NCBI RefSeq assembly: GCF_000786105.1
Contig: NZ_JTEV01000021.1
Location: 62,001 to 126,000 of the forward strand
Source of the DNA: Bdellovibrio sp. ArHS
GTDB lineage: Bacteria; Bdellovibrionota; Bdellovibrionia; Bdellovibrionales; Bdellovibrionaceae
DNA length: 64,000 nt
Direction: 5' to 3'
Under the pieces are notes generated by a model that saw only the letters and a program-made list of their open reading frames with translations, had not been told where the DNA came from and searched no databases. Below are positions 21,636 through 45,803 of the stretch, piece after piece; positions within the stretch are counted from its first letter, which is position 1; each line of letters opens with the position of its first letter. A program made the translations under genes and the position numbers.

Positions 21636-22193
21636 ATGAAGTGGTTAGCATTAGTTCTGTCGTTCGTTTTTGGTCGTTTGAACATGAGACCCCGCGGCTT
21701 TAAGGATGCCGCCATCGAAATTTTTGATGAGGTGTCCTTTCGCAGTCGCCGCATGGTGACTCTTATTTTAGTGGGTGTGGCGGCCGTCATCTTTTTCACC
21801 GGTGGATTGTTTATCTCTTTACTGGATCTCTCGATGCAGTGGGATCGCACCGGAAGTATCCTATGGTCGGCCACGCTGAGTACGGGCGTCGGCCTGATTG
21901 TTTTAGCCTCTGCGGCTTTTGCCGTGGTCTTTCTGCGCGCCTGGCCGGGAGCGGTGAAAGCCAAACAACAAATTAAGCGCAAACTCAAACATGAACAGGA
22001 AGAAGAAGAGGCTGAACTGCAACGTCACCCGAGTTCCCTAGAGCAAGCTTTATCCGCCTTGGTCATGGATTTTGTCAAAGAACGCGAAATTCGTCGAGCT
22101 GCTCGCAGTTCCGAAACCTCGGCTTACGCCGGAGAAGGCATGAACGAGGGACCAACCTCCAGTCACGAGAAACCCCGCTCGCACGTGCATTAG
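21636..22193 (+). CDS. Membrane protein of YqjE / phage-holin-3-6-like architecture
   Basis: The 185-residue protein has two clear hydrophobic segments, MVTLILVGVAAVIFFTGGLF (about 40-59) and a second at about 85-105, flanked by a charged N-terminal part and a long Glu/Arg/Lys-rich cytosolic tail. In E. coli a DUF883 gene (yqjD) is followed by yqjE, a two-helix protein of the Phage_holin_3_6 family; gene order and layout agree, but sequence identity to YqjE is not obvious. The ATG at 21636 has GGGAG 6 bases upstream. Its 3' end overlaps the convergent activator gene by 4 bases. Confidence 0.65.
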   Translation: MKWLALVLSFVFGRLNMRPRGFKDAAIEIFDEVSFRSRRMVTLILVGVAAVIFFTGGLFISLLDLSMQWDRTGSILWSATLSTGVGLIVLASAAFAVVFLRAWPGAVKAKQQIKRKLKHEQEEEEAELQRHPSSLEQALSALVMDFVKEREIRRAARSSETSAYAGEGMNEGPTSSHEKPRSHVH

Positions 22194-23155
22194 GCACGTT
22201 GCTGCTGGTGGTGCGTCTTGCGATAAAGGGTTTTTCGATCTATTCCCAAATCCTTCGCGGTTTTTTCCCGGGCGCCCTTATTCACTTGTAGTGCGTACTC
22301 AATATACTGTCGAGCCATTTCCTCAAGAGAAAGAAGTCGTCCCTCTTTCTGACAAAGGCGCTCAAACACAGACTCCAGACTGAGCGCCCTTTTCTGATTT
22401 CCATCTAAATCATTCACGGTGATTTCGGCACCCGCGCTTAAAACCACCGCGCGTTCTATGGTGTTTTCCAATTCACGGACATTTCCCCACCACGAGTGAG
22501 ACAACAGATAACTGCGCACCTCGGCCGCGAAGTGCTTTTCGACAGCGTGGTGCCGCAAAGAATATTTCTTTAAAAAGTATTCCGCCAAAGGAAGAATATC
22601 ATCCATTCTTTCGCGCAAAGGCGGAACTTCGATCGGCACGACGTTCAATCGAAAATAGAGATCTTCGCGAAATTTTTTCTGCTGCACATCTTCGCTGAGA
22701 TCGTTGTGAGTTGCCGCCAATATTCGAATATTCAGAGGGCGGTAGTGGTTTTCCCCCACTCGCTTGACTTTCTTTTCCTGCAAAACACGCAAGAGTTTCG
22801 CTTGCAGATGCAAATCCAGATCACCGATTTCATCCAAAAACAATGTCCCCCCATTCGCTTCTTCAAACAGGCCGGCTTTGTGTCCTCCCGCTCCGGTGAA
22901 TGCCCCCTTGGCATAACCGAAAAGCTCGCTTTCCAATAACTGCTCAGGAATGGCCGAGCAGTTGATCGGCACAAAGGGTTCTTTGCGCCGTGGACTGAGA
23001 TCATGAATCATTCGAGCGATGATTTCTTTTCCCGTACCGCTTTCTCCGGTGATAAGAACATTGGCCGAACTGGCCGAGACTCTTTTAGCCATGTCCAGAA
23101 CTTTCAAAAAGCGCGGACTGTGCGCGATAACCTGTGATTCCGCTGTCATTGTCAT
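22190..23155 (-). CDS. PspF-like sigma-54 transcriptional activator without sensory domain
   Basis: The 321-residue protein is just an AAA+ domain plus a Fis-type HTH. Walker A GESGTGKE is at 37-44, the sigma-54-contacting loop GAFTGA at 84-89, Walker B in [10 protein letters not shown], and the HTH at the end (KTAKDLGIDRKTLYRK). The receiver or GAF/PAS domain found in most bacterial enhancer-binding proteins is absent, as in E. coli PspF, whose activity is restrained by a partner. The ATG overlaps the stop of the upstream DJ-1/PfpI gene (TAATG), so translation is coupled. It converges on the DUF883 operon. Confidence 0.9.
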   Translation of the reverse strand: MTMTAESQVIAHSPRFLKVLDMAKRVSASSANVLITGESGTGKEIIARMIHDLSPRRKEPFVPINCSAIPEQLLESELFGYAKGAFTGAGGHKAGLFEEANGGTLFLDEIGDLDLHLQAKLLRVLQEKKVKRVGENHYRPLNIRILAATHNDLSEDVQQKKFREDLYFRLNVVPIEVPPLRERMDDILPLAEYFLKKYSLRHHAVEKHFAAEVRSYLLSHSWWGNVRELENTIERAVVLSAGAEITVNDLDGNQKRALSLESVFERLCQKEGRLLSLEEMARQYIEYALQVNKGAREKTAKDLGIDRKTLYRKTHHQQQRA

Positions 23156-23886
23156 TATGGATGCCCCCATTCGCACCAGTTTTTTTCCGGAACTGTTCGT
23201 CCCTCTGAAATAAAGTCGAGCACTTCCACAAGAGCCTGACCTACTTCCGCTGCCGAAGCAGGATTTTGCCCACTCACCAATCGTCCACTTTTCACCACGT
23301 GTGCGGTGAACTTGGGGGCTGAAGAAAATTGCGCGCCCCGTTCTTGCAACTTTGTTTCAAGTAAAAAAGGGACAACTTTTTCCATACCGACGGCCTCTTC
23401 TTCTTCATTGGTAAACGCAGACATCTCGTGGCCTTTCAACAAATAGTCGCCAGTAGAAAGACGCACATTCACCAGCCCCGCAGCACCATGACAAACAGAA
23501 GCTACGACGCCCTCATTTTCAAAAATCTGTGCCGTGATTTGTTGCAAAGGAACACATTCCGGCAAATCGAACATGGCTCCGTGGCCACCCACAAAAAGAA
23601 TCGCCGCATAGTCTTGGGCGCTCACATTAGCAGGCAGCAACGTGTGTTCTATCTTTTCCAGAAAATCTTCATCGTTCATCCACGTGGCATTTAAAGGGTC
23701 ATCCATCTTCACACCATCTAGCGGCACTTTACCGCCCTTGGGACTAGCCATATCAATCTCGAACCCCGCACGGCATAACTCGTCATATGGATGGGTGATT
23801 TCCGAAAGATAGGCGCCCGTGTGATGCCCCGAATCGCCCAGCCGCTCGGTGTTGGTTAAAACAAAAAGGACCTTCTTACTGATCAT
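23155..23886 (-). CDS. DJ-1/PfpI superfamily protein (Hsp31-like class I amidotransferase fold)
   Basis: A 243-residue cytosolic protein with the nucleophile elbow VCHGAAG (Cys132-His133) and the upstream FVGGHGAMFDLPE loop that completes the active site. The N-terminal TGAYLSEITHPYDELCRAGF stretch is typical of the group that includes glyoxalase III/Hsp31-like and general stress proteins. Members detoxify methylglyoxal or act as chaperones or deglycases; which applies is not evident. ATG 23886 has a GGGAGAG site; an in-frame ATG at 23904 precedes it. Its stop overlaps the start of the PspF-like gene. Confidence 0.88.
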   Translation of the reverse strand: MISKKVLFVLTNTERLGDSGHHTGAYLSEITHPYDELCRAGFEIDMASPKGGKVPLDGVKMDDPLNATWMNDEDFLEKIEHTLLPANVSAQDYAAILFVGGHGAMFDLPECVPLQQITAQIFENEGVVASVCHGAAGLVNVRLSTGDYLLKGHEMSAFTNEEEEAVGMEKVVPFLLETKLQERGAQFSSAPKFTAHVVKSGRLVSGQNPASAAEVGQALVEVLDFISEGRTVPEKNWCEWGHP

Positions 23887-25468: not shown

Positions 25469-27532
25469 ATGTCCAAGGCGCAAGCACTTCACAAACTGAT
25501 GATTGTGATCGGTCTTCTTTTAATTCTTCTCGTAACGCTGCAATCGCACGCGGCCCCTGTTCATCATAAAATGCAGGTAGAAATTATTCCGGGCCTAAAG
25601 ATGCTCAAGGCCCAGGACACTTTGACTTTCGCCAAAGACACGCCCCGCAAACTGAGTTTCGTTCTACACAAAGATCTGCAAGTTTCTGTCACGAGTTCCG
25701 ATGACAGCCTGATTCTTCTTCACCCTGCGACTAAAGAAGAACCTTATGCCGAGTACGGTCTGCAACTGAGTAACCAGGACAACAAGGTTTCCTTATACTA
25801 CCAAGGAGTGATTTATGACCCCGTCGTCAACGACAACTCTGACGGTTTAATCGCTCCTGAAGGCGCCACCCTTTTTGGCAGCACTTACTGGTATCCTTCT
25901 TTTTTAGATACACAAAAAAGTTTCGACATTTCCGTGAAAACTCCCGTGGCGTGGCGCTCATTGGTTCAGGGCCAGATCACAAGTATGGAAGTCGATGCCT
26001 CCTCGCGCACGTCCCGCTTCGTCGAAATTTATCCGCAAGAAGAAATCTATCTGGTTGCCGGTCCGTTTTCTTTTTATGAAAAAGAACTGAAAGACGGAAA
26101 AAAAGTCCAAGTTCTCTTGCGCAAAGATGATTCCTCTTTGGCGCAAAATTTTATTTCTTTGATCCCGGGTTTCCTTGAACACTATTCTTCAGCTATTTCT
26201 CCTTATCCATATTCTTCTTTCACGGTGGTTGAGAATTTCTGGGAGACAGGCTACGGCATGCCCAGCTTCACTTTGTTAGGTCCTACAGTGATTCGTCTTC
26301 CTTTTCTGCTGAATTCGTCGCTGCCCCATGAAGTGCTGCACAACTGGTGGGGCAACAGTGTCTACGTGGATTACGATAAGGGAAATTGGTGCGAAGGACT
26401 TACTACTTACATGGCCGATCATTGGCAACAAGAGTTGGCCGGCAATGATCGTGGCTACCGCTTAAACACTCTGATCAACTACGCGGACTTCGTCGCCGCC
26501 AATCCTAAGAATGACTTCCCGGTCCGTCAGTTCCGCGGTCGCCATAATTCCAGCTCGCAAGCCGTGGGGTATGGCAAAACCATGATGATTTTCCACATGC
26601 TGGAATTCCGTTTCGGTAAAGACCTATTCAAAAAAGCCTTGCAGGACTTTTATTCCGAAAATCTTTTTCAACGCGTTTCATTTTTTGAAATTCAAAAAAG
26701 TTTTGAGAAGGTGACGAATCAAAACCTGAACACTTTTTTCACGCAATGGTTAGACCGTGAAGGGGCCCCGCAAATCGAGCTTCCCGACGTTAAGGTGATG
26801 CGCTGGCTGGACGGTTCTTACAGCACGACTTACGTTCTAGCACAGACACAAAATGCCCCGTCTTACGAGTTGAACATTCCGGTTATCTGGACTCTTGAAA
26901 ACGGCCAAGAAGTTCGTCAGTTGGCACGTCTTTTTGACAAGTCCCAGGTGTTTTCATTGGTCAGCCATTCGCGTCCGGTCAAAGTGGCTGTCGATCCTGA
27001 CTACCATGTTTTCAGAAAGCTTTTTATTGAGGAACGTCCCGCCACACTTTCTTCGATTCTAGGAAGCCCGGAAGTGCACTTCTATTTCGATCCAGCTCAA
27101 CCGCAAGCAGAAAAGTTTGCGCGTGTTTGGGCCGCAGCCACAGACGGACAAGACAGCTTCAACAAAGTCACAGAGACCTTGAGTCTGGCCCCGCAAGGTG
27201 CTTTAGTTCTGATCGGTGATAAGGATTTGTTTGCGCAATTTGTGAAGACGCAGTTGAGTGAGCAAAAATTCGAACTGACAGACACAACACTTCGTATCGA
27301 CACACAGGAATTCAATCTTCAGGAAACCAGCACCGTTTTAGTCATGCGCCTGAAATCAAATCCGCAACAACCAGTGGTATGGGTGCGCTGGAGCAAAGAG
27401 AATAATCCTGAAGAGTGGGCTTCGCGCCTGACTCACTATGGAACTTTCGGCGTCCTAGTTTTCAAAGGGCGCCCGGCGGTTTTCAAAAGCACCTGGCCTG
27501 TTCTGCAGTCCCCCTTACAGCGAAATCTGTAA
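25469..27532 (+). CDS. Exported M1-like (gluzincin) metallopeptidase
   Basis: A 687-residue protein with an N-terminal hydrophobic signal (about residues 10-29). The zinc motif HEVLHNWWGN is at 287-291 onward with the third ligand Glu309 in NWCEG. Spacing from the second His to that Glu is 17 residues, one fewer than classic M1 enzymes; the same HNWWGN...GNWCEG pattern is common in a family of uncharacterised exported M1 proteins. The GAMEN exopeptidase motif is replaced by an ETGYGMPS segment, so aminopeptidase activity is uncertain. A second domain follows residue 450. GAGGT precedes the ATG. Confidence 0.87.
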   Translation: MSKAQALHKLMIVIGLLLILLVTLQSHAAPVHHKMQVEIIPGLKMLKAQDTLTFAKDTPRKLSFVLHKDLQVSVTSSDDSLILLHPATKEEPYAEYGLQLSNQDNKVSLYYQGVIYDPVVNDNSDGLIAPEGATLFGSTYWYPSFLDTQKSFDISVKTPVAWRSLVQGQITSMEVDASSRTSRFVEIYPQEEIYLVAGPFSFYEKELKDGKKVQVLLRKDDSSLAQNFISLIPGFLEHYSSAISPYPYSSFTVVENFWETGYGMPSFTLLGPTVIRLPFLLNSSLPHEVLHNWWGNSVYVDYDKGNWCEGLTTYMADHWQQELAGNDRGYRLNTLINYADFVAANPKNDFPVRQFRGRHNSSSQAVGYGKTMMIFHMLEFRFGKDLFKKALQDFYSENLFQRVSFFEIQKSFEKVTNQNLNTFFTQWLDREGAPQIELPDVKVMRWLDGSYSTTYVLAQTQNAPSYELNIPVIWTLENGQEVRQLARLFDKSQVFSLVSHSRPVKVAVDPDYHVFRKLFIEERPATLSSILGSPEVHFYFDPAQPQAEKFARVWAAATDGQDSFNKVTETLSLAPQGALVLIGDKDLFAQFVKTQLSEQKFELTDTTLRIDTQEFNLQETSTVLVMRLKSNPQQPVVWVRWSKENNPEEWASRLTHYGTFGVLVFKGRPAVFKSTWPVLQSPLQRNL

Positions 27533-27563
27533 TTCATCATTTTTGCCGTCCTACTGGTCTACA

Positions 27564-27579
27564 TGGCTTGTAAATTGCT
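27564..27579 (+). promoter_or_regulatory. Candidate sigma-54 promoter of the 35-residue protein gene
   Basis: TGGCTTGTAAATTGCT has -24 TGGC and a perfect -12 TTGCT with correct 12-base GG-to-GC spacing. The predicted start is near 27590, two bases before a stable inverted repeat. Confidence 0.55.
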
Positions 27580-27591
27580 CTGTAAAGAAGT

Positions 27592-27630
27592 GGCGGCATT
27601 CTTTGCGCATTTCCGAGGATAATTGCCGCC
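27592..27630 (+). other. Inverted repeat (5' leader hairpin) before the 35-residue protein gene
   Basis: GGCGGCA (27592-27598) pairs with TGCCGCC (27624-27630), with two further A-T pairs after a one-base bulge. It would fold at the very 5' end of a transcript begun at the sigma-54-type promoter and lies 25 bases before the ATG. Confidence 0.5.
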
Positions 27631-27654
27631 GACTGCCATATGGAAGGGGCGATT

Positions 27655-27762
27655 ATGGATCTTAAGAATCAGTCAGGAAAAATTGGTTGGATTCTTCTTT
27701 GGGCAATTGGCATTCCTATTCCCGTTCTTATTGTGCTTTTTCTCATTCGAGGTTGCACCTAG
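27655..27762 (+). CDS. Conserved 35-residue hydrophobic membrane protein ending RGCT
   Basis: A very short gene with a good GGAAGGGGC ribosome binding site 4 bases before the ATG. The product has a polar start (MDLKNQSGK), one membrane helix (GWILLWAIGIPIPVLIVLFL) and the ending IRGCT. Small proteins of this pattern (GxxLLxxxGxPIPVLxxLFLxRGCT) are, from memory, conserved across several phyla with no known role. The strong site and pattern make it a real gene. Confidence 0.75.
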   Translation: MDLKNQSGKIGWILLWAIGIPIPVLIVLFLIRGCT

Positions 27763-27851: not shown

Positions 27852-27870
27852 CTCATAAGTCGCTTATGAG
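27852..27870. promoter_or_regulatory. Perfect palindrome, possible operator
   Basis: CTCATAAGTCGCTTATGAG is an 8-bp perfect inverted repeat with a 3-base centre. It lies upstream of a TATAAA -10-like element (27902-27907) for the gene at 27936, centred about 50 bases before the likely start, the usual place for an activator site. It could also form an RNA hairpin. Confidence 0.4.
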
Positions 27871-27935
27871 GCGGCATGGTTTTAGCTCAGACACATCAAC
27901 ATATAAATATAGAAAATCATTCTTAGGAGATACAC

Positions 27936-33615: not shown

Positions 33616-35022
33616 CTATTCATCATCCAGTTCGTCATCACCGACAACGCCCAGATTATACTTTTCTATGCGATATCGCATGGATCGGAAGGAAATATGA
33701 AGAAGCTTGGCAGCTCTTTTCTTCACGCCGCCTGCGGCATGAATGGCTTTAACCAAAAGCTCTTTTTCAATTTGCCCCATCACCTTATCAAGATCGACAC
33801 CATCATCACCGATTTCGATTTCGTTGGAAGAAGCCATCTTGCGTCCTGAAGAGGTGTTTACCATTGGTGGTAAAGATTCAGGAAGAATCGTGGCGCCGCC
33901 TTCCAAAGCGACGGTGCGTTCGATCAAATTCTCAAGTTCTCGCACGTTTCCTGGATAGTCGTACTTTTTGAGAATTTCCATGGCTTCCGAGCTGATCGCG
34001 CCAATGTTTTTTCCCAAACGCTCGTTGTACTTTTTAAGGAAGTGATTTGCGAGCAAGGGAATATCATCACGACGATCACGAAGACCCGGAGTCTTAATAT
34101 TGATCACGTTCAAACGATAGAACAAATCTTGACGGAAAGTTCCCTTTTGCACCATCTCTTCAAGGTTTCTGTTGGTCGCAGCGATAATACGCACGTCGAC
34201 TTTCATATCGTCGGTCGCGCCCACGCGGCGGATGACACGCTCCTGGATCGCACGAAGAAGTTTTACCTGAATCGTCAAAGGCAATTCCCCGACTTCGTCT
34301 AGAAACAAAGTTCCTGAGTCCGCGACTTCAAAAAGACCGGCTTTGTCAGACACCGCCCCTGTGAACGAACCTTTTTTATGACCAAACATCTCGGATTCCA
34401 TCAGATTTTCAGGAATCGCACCGCAGTTGACGGTCACGAAGGGACGATCTTTCAATGGACCGTTGTAGTGAATGGCCTTAGCCACCACCTCTTTACCGGT
34501 TCCCGATTCCCCGGTGATCAAAACGTTTGTTGGTGTTTGCGATACACGCTTCACCATATCAAAAATCGCGTGCATGGCCTGTGAATTACCAACCATGTTT
34601 TGGAAAGAATACTCTTTAACCAATTCTTTTTTTAGTGATCTGTTTTCAACTTCTAAGTTGCGAGAGCGCAAGGCGTTCTGAATGTTCAAACGAACTTCAT
34701 CAATCTTAAACGGCTTCGTCAGATAATCGTAAGCACCCATTTTCATCGCTTCCACAGCGGTTTCTGTCGTGCCGAAAGCTGTGATCAACATGAAAACCGT
34801 ATCAGGATAGGATTCTTTGACGTGCTTCAAAAGCTCGATGCCCGTCACATGCGGCATCTGTAAATCCGAAATGATCATATCGAAAGTTTTTTTGGTCAGA
34901 AGGTCTTTCGCTTTTTGGCCATCCTCAGCCAAAGTCACTTCATAGCCTTCTTTCTTCAGCATGATCTCTAAAAACTCGCGAATGGATTCTTCGTCATCGA
35001 CAACAAGAATTCTCGACTTCAT
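33616..35022 (-). CDS. pilR: Sigma-54-dependent response regulator, PilR type
   Basis: A 468-residue NtrC-family regulator: receiver domain with phosphoacceptor Asp53 (IISDLQMP), AAA+ domain with Walker A GESGTGKEVV near 170 and the sigma-54 loop as GSFTGA (Ser variant), Walker B TLFLDEVGEL, and a Fis-type HTH at the C-terminus (KKRAAKLLHISFRSMRYRIEK). It lies directly downstream of a membrane histidine kinase and pilBC, the arrangement of PilSR, which control pilin expression. The pilin gene is not in this window. Last gene of the operon. Confidence 0.9.
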   Translation of the reverse strand: MKSRILVVDDEESIREFLEIMLKKEGYEVTLAEDGQKAKDLLTKKTFDMIISDLQMPHVTGIELLKHVKESYPDTVFMLITAFGTTETAVEAMKMGAYDYLTKPFKIDEVRLNIQNALRSRNLEVENRSLKKELVKEYSFQNMVGNSQAMHAIFDMVKRVSQTPTNVLITGESGTGKEVVAKAIHYNGPLKDRPFVTVNCGAIPENLMESEMFGHKKGSFTGAVSDKAGLFEVADSGTLFLDEVGELPLTIQVKLLRAIQERVIRRVGATDDMKVDVRIIAATNRNLEEMVQKGTFRQDLFYRLNVINIKTPGLRDRRDDIPLLANHFLKKYNERLGKNIGAISSEAMEILKKYDYPGNVRELENLIERTVALEGGATILPESLPPMVNTSSGRKMASSNEIEIGDDGVDLDKVMGQIEKELLVKAIHAAGGVKKRAAKLLHISFRSMRYRIEKYNLGVVGDDELDDE

Positions 35023-42483: not shown

Positions 42484-44394
42484 ATGTTGCGACGCGTGCA
42501 AAACCCCTCTAATCAAGATCCAACTCCGGCGAAGCTGGGGTTGAGAGAAATCAAAGTCCGTCTCGAAGTCCTGCTTCGATTCTTTTCCCGTCGCCGCGGA
42601 TTTTGGCTCCGTTGTATTTTGTGTTGGAGCATCGGGTGCCTAGCCCTTTCCAATGATGAAATCACTTCTTACGATCAGCGCTTTCAACTGCGCGGCGATC
42701 AACGAGCCTCCCAACAGATCGTTCTGATCACCATTCGCCAATCTGACTTCGCGACGATTTACGACAGCAGGACCAACTTCCTGGACAACATGTCTGAAGT
42801 CACCGACATCACGGACAGCTTTTTCTGGAACAAACCGGTGTGGAATGAATTGCTTTTAAAAATTCTGCGCCAGAATCCTCGTTCCGTCGGGGTCACTTTG
42901 TATTTCGGCGACAATATCGGGACGGTCCGTTTGTCTCAGGAAGAACAACGTTTATTTCTGGATAAACGCGTGGTGTGGGCTTCGACCACAAACAGCTTAG
43001 AGCGAGTCCTGACACCGGCCTTTGCCAACCGCGACCATGACAACCTTGGTAATAACGAAGTTCGCCGTGACGAAGACGGTGTGGTCCGCCGCGTGTTTCC
43101 GCAAAGAGCAGAACTGCCCCACCTGGTGGAACGCCTGACAGGCAAGAAATTTCCTACAACTTTGGCAGGTCTTCCCATCAACTACGCTGGTTCCAGCCGC
43201 GTTTTCACTCAGTACACCTTGAGCGAAATCATGTACGACGAAATTCCTGCGAACGCCTTTTCCGATAAGATCGTCCTGATCGGGGCCGAAACGTCGGCGG
43301 CCCCGGTTTACATGACACCTGTGGGGACCTTGTCACGCTCAGAGATTCTGGCGCACGTGACGGACACAGTTTTGGGAAACAAGTGGATCCAGCGTCTTTC
43401 GTTCTGGTGGTATGCTGCCGGATTTTTCATTCTGATGATGATGGCGGTCTTCCTTATCACGACGTATCCGCAATCAGTCGCGCTGTTTTGCATTCTTTGG
43501 ATCGGCACTTTGCTGGCCGCCTTGTCGGCTTGGGTTTTCGATAGTTTCTATTTCTGGTCCCCTGCCTTTTCGCCGTTTGTACTTTTAGGCGCCTGCTGGA
43601 TCATTTTTATCGGCTATCAGGCGACAAAAATCGAAAAGAAGAACTTCCGGTTGCAACAAGAACAGCAGTACATGCAGGAATTAGAACAGCTTAAAAACAA
43701 CTTCGTCAGTTTGATCTCCCACGATCTCAAAACACCGATCGCAAAAATTCAGGCCATCGTGGATCGTTTGCTGACTCAAAATGCGGACACGGAATTGGGC
43801 CAAGACCTGCGCTCTTTGCGCGTTTATGGAGACGAACTAAACCGCTATATTCAATCCATTCTGAAGGTTTTGCGTGTCGAATCCCGCGACTTTAAAATTC
43901 ACACCGAAGTCGGTGATATCAACGAAGTGATTGAGGAAGCGCTGCAAACCTTGCGTCCTTTGGCGCGGGAAAAGAACATTCAAATCCACACGGCCCTGGA
44001 ACCTATGTTCTCTTTGGAGTTTGACTTGACGTTGATCAAAGAGGTGATCATCAACCTGGTGGAAAATGCCATCAAATACACACCTCGTGATGGCCAAATC
44101 GAAGTGATCTCTCTGGAGGCCGATGACATGGTTCACGTCATTGTCAAAGACACCGGGGAAGGTATCAAACCCGAAGACATGGACAAAGTATGGCGTAAGT
44201 TCACTCGCGGTAGCGACCAGGATCTTCGCACCAAAGGAACAGGTTTAGGACTTTACTTAGTAAAATACTTTATTGAACTGCATGGCGGGAAAGTAAAAAT
44301 GGAAAGCACCGTGGGCCAAGGCACGACGGTCTCTTTCACTTTACCGCTGGATTCTGAAATCGTAGTAGAAAATGAAACTGAGGTGATCGCATGA
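42484..44394 (+). CDS. CHASE2-domain sensor histidine kinase
   Basis: A protein of about 636 residues: one N-terminal membrane helix, an extracytoplasmic CHASE2 domain (about 40-305, with KIVLIGAETSAAPVYMTPVG near its end), three membrane helices (about 310-395), a short coiled coil, HisKA with SLISHDLKTPIAKI (phospho-His in SHDLKTP), and HATPase_c with NLVENAIKYTPR and GTGLGLYLVK. CHASE2 binds unknown extracellular signals. ATG 42484 is used, but a GTG at 42448 is also possible; neither has a strong ribosome binding site. The 3' end overlaps the response regulator (ATGA). Confidence 0.92.
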   Translation: MLRRVQNPSNQDPTPAKLGLREIKVRLEVLLRFFSRRRGFWLRCILCWSIGCLALSNDEITSYDQRFQLRGDQRASQQIVLITIRQSDFATIYDSRTNFLDNMSEVTDITDSFFWNKPVWNELLLKILRQNPRSVGVTLYFGDNIGTVRLSQEEQRLFLDKRVVWASTTNSLERVLTPAFANRDHDNLGNNEVRRDEDGVVRRVFPQRAELPHLVERLTGKKFPTTLAGLPINYAGSSRVFTQYTLSEIMYDEIPANAFSDKIVLIGAETSAAPVYMTPVGTLSRSEILAHVTDTVLGNKWIQRLSFWWYAAGFFILMMMAVFLITTYPQSVALFCILWIGTLLAALSAWVFDSFYFWSPAFSPFVLLGACWIIFIGYQATKIEKKNFRLQQEQQYMQELEQLKNNFVSLISHDLKTPIAKIQAIVDRLLTQNADTELGQDLRSLRVYGDELNRYIQSILKVLRVESRDFKIHTEVGDINEVIEEALQTLRPLAREKNIQIHTALEPMFSLEFDLTLIKEVIINLVENAIKYTPRDGQIEVISLEADDMVHVIVKDTGEGIKPEDMDKVWRKFTRGSDQDLRTKGTGLGLYLVKYFIELHGGKVKMESTVGQGTTVSFTLPLDSEIVVENETEVIA

Positions 44395-45803
44395 CAAATA
44401 AACTCCACACCCTGATTGTAGACGATGAAGCTGAGTTGCGCCGCTCTGTCATTTCAATTCTGAAATCGACGATGCCGGAAATTGACTTCACTATTGACGA
44501 AGCATCCACCGGAAAAGAAGCCTTGGATAAAGTGAAACAACAGCAGTGGGACCTGGTGCTCATGGACGTCAAGATGCCAGAGATGAACGGCATCGAAGCG
44601 CTCACGGCCATCAAAGAACATGACCCGCGCACGTTCGTCGTTCTGATGACGGCGCATTCGAATCTTCATGATGCGGTCTTGGCCATCAAAGAGGGCGCCT
44701 ACGACTACGTGGAAAAGCCCGTCAATCCGCAATTGCTGACTGAAATCGTCCGCAAAAGTCAGGAAGCGCGCGACCTGGTTTCAAGCCTTGCCCTGTCCAA
44801 TCCGGTCTTTGATGACGATATCGAAAGTGAATTTGTCGGTGGCTCTTCCAAGATGAAAGAGGTCTTTAATTTAATCTATCGTCTTTGCAAAGTGGACACG
44901 ACGGTGCTCGTGCGTGGCGAAAATGGTACGGGGAAGGAACTGGTGGCCAAGGCCATTCACTTCAACTCCCCTCGTAAATCGGGAAGTTTTGTCGCGATCA
45001 ACTGCGGCGCTATTCCCGAAAGCCTGATGGAAAGCGAACTTTTCGGTCATGAAAAAGGTGCTTTCACAGGCGCGGTGGAAAGAAAAATCGGCAAATTCCA
45101 AATGGCCAACAACGGCACCCTGTTCCTGGATGAAATTGGCGAGTTGCGTCCCGATATGCAGGTTAAACTTTTGCGGGTTCTTCAGGAACGTAAGTTTACC
45201 CCCGTGGGCGGAACCCGCGAAGTGAAGACCACCACTCGCATTATCGCTGCCACCAATCGCAACTTGGAAAAGATGATGGAAGAAGGCACGTTCCGGGAAG
45301 ATTTGTTCTATCGCCTGAACGTGATGCCGATCTTTCTGCCGCCTTTGCGTGAACGTATTGACGACATCGAAGCCTTAACCCAAAACTTTATTAAGAAGTT
45401 TTCAAAACAGCACGGTCGCACCATTCACGGCGTGACTGACGACGTTTTGTCTCTGTTAAAAGCGTATCGCTGGCCCGGCAATATCCGCGAGTTGGAAAAC
45501 GTGATTGAGCGCGCCTTTATCGTTGAGAATTCCAACGAGATCACTGTGGACTCTTTACCGGAGTCGTTGAAGCTGGCTCCTAAAGAGAGTTCGGACAAAA
45601 CGGCGAGCGTGGGTTATTCCGGTCCGCTGGATTTTGATGCCTTCAAAGAAGAGATGGAAAAAGAGTTTATCGTCAGTGCTTTGAAAGCCAACAACGGTCG
45701 CATCAATCAGACCGTGGCCCAGGCTAATATTCCTAAGAACACTTTGCTGCGCAAGATTCGTAAGTACGGTATCAATGTGAAGGATTACACTAACGAAGAA
45801 TAA
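44391..45803 (+). CDS. Sigma-54-dependent response regulator paired with the CHASE2 kinase
   Basis: A 470-residue NtrC-family protein: receiver with Asp59 (VLMDVKMP), AAA+ with Walker [11 protein letters not shown], loop GAFTGA, Walker [11 protein letters not shown], and a C-terminal Fis-type HTH ([23 protein letters not shown]). The 4-base overlap with the kinase gene makes them a two-component pair. Targets are unknown. Its end overlaps the convergent heptosyltransferase gene by 14 bases. Confidence 0.92.

Follow-up and report, generated by a model that had tools for sequence, protein, structure and literature searches.

In the phage-shock (Psp) regulon of E. coli, the activator PspF and sigma-54 drive the expression of small membrane proteins. 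At the level of the message, 5' stem-loops of the ompA type act as mRNA stabilisers. The sigma-54 promoter itself has a published consensus, tGGcacg / tTGCt (PMC4641369).

The locus described here, from a Bdellovibrio-type bacterium, combines elements reminiscent of these systems. Within the window (the whole 64,000-nucleotide stretch of DNA analysed), a predicted sigma-54-type promoter is followed by a leader hairpin and a gene of 35 codons (Table 1). Taken singly, these elements are unremarkable, and their combination is significant only through comparison with relatives. The reading that we favour, with a probability of roughly 0.6, is that of a stress-type membrane protein with a single span, controlled by sigma-54 and translated from a message that would carry a stabilising 5' stem-loop.

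Table 1. Features of the small-gene locus, with positions counted from the first nucleotide of the window.
Feature	Position	Strand	Basis
Candidate regulator: sigma-54 activator gene without receiver domain	22190..23176	-	PF00158, PF02954 (AAA+, Fis-type HTH)
Upstream M1-type peptidase gene	25469..27532	+	PF01433; neighbour conserved in five genomes
Sigma-54-type promoter TGGCTTGTAAATTGCT: TGGC (-24), TTGCT (-12), N7 spacing	27564..27579	+	Exact match, relatives, enrichment
Predicted transcription start	27590..27591	+	Sigma-54 geometry, about 12 nt past the -12 GC
Predicted 5' leader hairpin: outer stem TGGCGGCA/TGCCGCCG, inner stem TCTTTG/CGAGGA	27591..27631	+	Fold from the predicted start
Shine-Dalgarno region GGAAGGGGC, outside the hairpin	27642..27650	+	Sequence; AGGGGC also in G005 and G008
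Gene of the putative 35-aa membrane protein, MDLKNQSGKIGWILLWAIGIPIPVLIVLFLIRGCT	27655..27762	+	Relatives, substitution pattern, AF2

The initial annotation had described a 35-codon gene with a ribosome-binding site, ending in RGCT and short enough to be missed by most annotation. This gene was indeed found, unannotated, with its ATG 122 bases past the end of the M1-type peptidase gene; the encoded protein ends in IRGCT and the stop codon at 27762. An alternative in-frame ATG at 27640 would give a protein of 40 aa, but 27655 is the better start, because two relatives (G005 and G008) have no ATG at the position corresponding to 27640. Conservation of the reading frame, on which the initial annotation had made its proposal depend, was clear, with the frame kept in other phyla and in 16 of the 24 genomes of the genus, where whole-genome tblastn found relatives at 64-97% identity; relatives were also found in further genera of the same family. 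Compared with G005 and G008 over 29 codons (87 nt), 13 and 11 base changes, respectively, were located in synonymous codons and 1 in a nonsynonymous codon. Substitutions between close relatives are thus almost all synonymous, which indicates purifying selection, and the comparison identifies the 35-codon gene as real and conserved. An AF2 model of the protein consisted of a single helix with a kink at the GIP motif (mean pLDDT of 79), and a hydrophobic stretch of 22 residues suggests a membrane location. Searches of Pfam (up to E 10) and NCBIfam (up to E 1) returned no model matching the protein, and proteins of such length routinely escape annotation.

At least 80 loci of this protein family were identified in a scan of GTDB genomes. 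The loci listed belong to Beta- and Gammaproteobacteria, Desulfobacterota, Nitrospirae, Verrucomicrobia, Planctomycetes, Hydrogenedentes, and Bdellovibrionota, which indicates a family spanning at least seven bacterial phyla, and nearly all of them end in RGCT. In a profile of 23 members, the residues G, G, W, G, P, L, R, and G were invariant and the terminal T nearly so, giving the signature (G)K-I/V-GWILLW-x-x-G-I/V-P-x-P-x-L-x-x-L-F/Y-x-x-RG-C/G-T. The 35-aa protein shares the conserved frame with the invariant G, GW, W, and G.P, and with RG near the C-terminus. No family copies were found in the plasmid and phage sequences searched, and a literature search for the peptide motif found no paper carrying it. 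A cross-phylum family with near-invariant residues and without a Pfam or NCBIfam model provides a concrete target for functional work. In a subfamily ending in RGGT (L026, L028, L029, L030, L031, L032, L104, L139), the gene follows one that encodes a membrane protein with several spans, and the two apparently form operons with a gap of about 15-107 bases; this multi-span protein is a candidate partner of the subfamily. In the HD100-like genomes G006, G003, and G009 (L017, L020, L021), the family gene lies directly behind a host-attachment/baeRF gene, which it overlaps in G003, and no sigma-54 site was found near it in these three genomes.

Among the same-strand neighbours of family genes, we identified catalases, hemerythrins, AI-2E transporters, PRC-barrel proteins, and PPK2, as well as P-type ATPases, baeRF/host-attachment proteins, PAS kinases, and alpha/beta hydrolases; BON-domain-like lipoproteins were also present in the gene clusters. 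This profile is that of general and envelope stress islands, with genes of envelope and oxidative stress often adjacent to the family gene. It leads us to propose a small, sigma-54-controlled stress protein of the inner membrane, the suggested stress role being drawn from the neighbourhood. Together with the spread across phyla, these surroundings point beyond what the initial annotation had proposed. On the other side of the gene in the window, an inverted repeat, CTCATAAGtcgCTTATGAG, was observed at 27854-27872, ahead of a gene for a secreted protein of 130 aa (27936); it is kept as CTCATAAgctatTTATGAG in G005 and G008.

Counting both strands, 64 kb of sequence should contain the pattern TGGC-N7-TTGCT 0.63 times by chance; it was found twice in the window, once at this locus. 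An M1 peptidase gene precedes the 35-codon gene in five genomes (G000, which is the genome of the window, G005, G008, G011, and G023), and in four of these five the pattern is present between the two genes, reading TGGCTTGTAAATTGCT in G000, TGGCTTTGATTTTGCT in G005, TGGCTTTGTTTTTGCT in G008, and TGGCGCCAATCTTGCT in G011. The promoter is absent from the orthologous place in G023, where the GC of the -12 element is missing. The G011 leader (roughly 130 bases) can hardly be aligned apart from the promoter site, and an independent match arising there by chance is unlikely, given the 0.63 expected per 64-kb window. The -24 element in the window reads TGGCTT, without the A and C of TGGCAC.

A wider comparison was made with a consensus weight matrix applied to the 300 bases upstream of each gene, with a cut-off of 12 bits. 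Sites at or above this cut-off were found upstream of 21 out of 100 family loci, an effective number below 100 since the loci are partly related by descent, versus 0.75 in dinucleotide shuffles. They were present in 3 of the 97 stretches downstream of family loci and at 26 of the 472 neighbouring genes (5.5%; Fisher p about 5e-6 versus family loci), and several of these neighbour matches correspond to genes of the same stress islands. Strong sigma-54 sites at other island genes were observed at L071, L077, L138, L069, L110, and L075, the genes encoding lipoproteins, a BON-type protein, and a family starting ...LSGHWN...VHQI; this suggests a shared stress regulon. The sigma-54-type promoter that the initial annotation had read from the letters alone was located where it had been placed, kept in relatives, and matched by an enrichment across the family; it is well supported by comparison, and transcription would begin at the predicted start.

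Family genes of Desulfobacterota share the upstream elements CAGTTATGTCAAAAATGACGGAT or GGTTAAATATGACCCTTT, which were detected in 10 of the 103 upstream stretches but in no downstream stretch, and which are probably sites of a sigma-54 activator. The element CGTCATATATGGCAGTTATGTCAAAAATGACGGAT is common to the Desulfuromonadales loci L092, L100, L108, L110, and L113, and GGTTAAATATGACCCTTT to the Desulfobulbales loci L068, L078, L084, and L072. Upstream of the promoter in the window, within the M1 coding sequence, no activator-binding site was recognised. The genome of the window encodes RpoN (PF04552, E 2e-65) and has ten strong matches to sigma-54 activators (PF00158). One of these, the receiver-less activator in Table 1, lies 4.5 kb from the small gene and is a candidate regulator of the promoter; its synteny extends to all five genomes carrying the small gene at the M1 site. 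Physical linkage of the two genes also occurs in the HD100-like genomes (3.8 kb, on the other side) but is not in itself evidence of control, because G003 contains no TGGC-N7-TTGCW site within 14 kb. Three of the ten strong activator genes lie within 24 kb, at 22190-23176 (-), 33616-35022 (-), and 44391-45803 (+); the receiver-less one is located beside a DJ-1/HchA-like gene, one is PilR-like and lies beside a PilS-like kinase, and one lies beside a CHASE2 kinase.

Just beyond the promoter, 12 bases past the -12 element, begins the inverted repeat that the initial annotation had reported, with GGCGGCA at 27592-27598 and TGCCGCC at 27624-27630. The window contains, at 10 places, perfect 7-base inverted repeats that have a loop of at most 30 bases and arms rich in G+C (6 or 7 of 7). 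Folded from the predicted start, the leader forms a hairpin of -20.9 kcal/mol; this hairpin was not seen in the 86-nt fold of 27580-27665, which was no more stable than shuffles (z of -0.60). Compared with equally long windows of the same locus (best of two window lengths), the G000 leader was in the top 1.1% of stability among 45-nt windows, and the leaders of the four promoter-bearing genomes were in the top 0.6-1.5% of their own loci. A strong hairpin starts 1-5 nt past the predicted start in all four promoter-bearing genomes, two of which are nearly identical, and its sequence is largely different among them: that of G005 and G008 is GGCAAAGTCTTCAAGCTTTTGAGGACTCTTGCC, and in G011 the stem comprises about 24 pairs. 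A comparable leader hairpin is absent from G023, where the -12 element is missing. By hand alignment, the inner stem TCTTTG/CGAGGA of G000 corresponds to TCTTCA/TGAGGA in G005 and G008, with one compensatory difference (G-C to A-U) and one one-sided difference (U-G to C-G), a thin covariation that is suggestive and falls short of proof.

The hairpin might conceivably have no function, being due to chance or neutral in the leader, in which case importance would be confined to the gene and its promoter. This reading draws on the small number of genomes, on a fold z-score of about 0 in G000, and on the lack of a hairpin in most of the distant relatives; we consider it doubtful, since four out of four promoter-bearing orthologues carry a hairpin at the same place in different sequence, while the orthologue without the -12 element carries none. 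We regard the hairpin as moderately supported, its presence being conserved and its sequence not. The initial proposal of a regulated small-protein transcript with a 5' hairpin accordingly held for the gene, for the promoter, and for a hairpin in every promoter-bearing relative; the letters of the hairpin were not conserved, and the alignment that it had called for yielded the two stem differences described above. Most sigma-54-linked family members in other phyla have no hairpin at the 5' end, and the other sigma-54-like sites of the window's genome show no genome-wide habit of 5' hairpins, which indicates a feature of this lineage. A search of the same genome found no second copy of the leader, and an Rfam scan of the window found only one tRNA. 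An upstream mini-ORF at GAGGA-N4-NTG (in G011, ATG CCC CGT AGT CAC TAA) was considered and rejected, as its frame differs in G000 and in G005/G008. The hairpin includes neither the Shine-Dalgarno site nor a U-tract, which makes occlusion of translation and termination unlikely, and protection of the 5' end would be its most economical role.

The promoter letters could also be a by-product of an intrinsic terminator of the M1 gene, with the small gene transcribed from another promoter or by read-through. A terminator-like hairpin lies exactly there in G005 (CAAAGCCA...TGGCTTTGATTTT), G008, and G023 (AGAAGCCATC...GATGGCTTCTTATTT), and in these three genomes the -24/-12 stretch forms its right half (the 3' half of the stem and the T-run); moreover, G023 retains the terminator while lacking the -12 GC. 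However, the left arm of the terminator is lost in G000, where TGGC-N7-TTGCT is nonetheless exact, and G011 carries TTGGCGCCAATCTTGCT without a terminator. The family-wide enrichment of sigma-54 sites also argues against this origin, and no good sigma-70 site was found in 27300-27650; we judge it unlikely. Finally, the inverted repeat might act as a DNA operator for a repressor or other regulator near the start, as a near-palindrome just past the start site with a right half, GAGGA-N4-TGCC, retained in four genomes would allow, but this is very improbable, given that the left arms and most letters differ (G000, G005/G008, G011) while pairing is retained, and that the G011 arm of about 24 pairs is far longer than an operator.

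Under the favoured reading of a sigma-54-controlled small membrane protein, an enhancer-binding protein of the genome would switch on the RpoN promoter, producing a short message from about 27590. This message would open with the stable stem-loop and encode an inner-membrane protein of 35 residues with a single span. By protecting the 5' end, the stem-loop would most likely stabilise the message against 5'-end-dependent decay, leaving the ribosome-binding site uncovered. Under stress, the protein would probably work in the inner membrane, where it would modulate a larger membrane protein or be its small partner. More tentatively, and with rather low confidence, the 35-aa protein might be a hitherto overlooked core effector in a sigma-54 envelope-stress programme that crosses phyla, reaching from Bdellovibrio as far as Verrucomicrobia and the sulfate reducers; in the Bdellovibrio lineage, the message of this protein would have acquired a structure-conserved 5' hairpin tuning message lifetime. 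The family, found repeatedly behind sigma-54-type promoters beside stress genes, may as a marker help to locate a sigma-54 stress regulon not yet described, and in the leader hairpin the persistence of a structure despite changing sequence can be tested on a small scale.

Compared with known sigma-54 promoters, such as those of the Desulfovibrio vulgaris regulome (PMC4641369), the promoter in the window has the same -24 TGGC, -12 TTGCT, and standard spacing, in a genome encoding RpoN and activators and with candidate upstream elements in Desulfobacterota relatives; it differs in being a predicted promoter and in reading TGGCTT instead of TGGCAC. The resemblance to the Psp regulon lies in a very small membrane protein behind a predicted sigma-54 promoter, with a receiver-less activator 4.5 kb away. 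However, the 35-aa protein has no Pfam or NCBIfam match to the PspB, PspC, PspD, or PspG families, and the activator scored far below the cut-offs of the PspF models (254 versus 443.55 bits and 213 versus 529 bits); by sequence, the protein does not belong to the Psp families, and the nearby activator is not of the PspF type. The leader differs from the ompA-type stabilisers in being short, in belonging to a different gene, and in having a hairpin whose conservation comes from four genomes, but shares with them a stable hairpin a few nucleotides from the 5' end and, in the predicted fold, an uncovered Shine-Dalgarno site. Although set apart by its own signature, GWILLW..G.P.P....RG(C/G)T, without a Pfam or NCBIfam model, the protein resembles the small single-span, stress-associated membrane proteins (<50 aa) in its size, its one hydrophobic helix, and its stress-gene neighbourhood.
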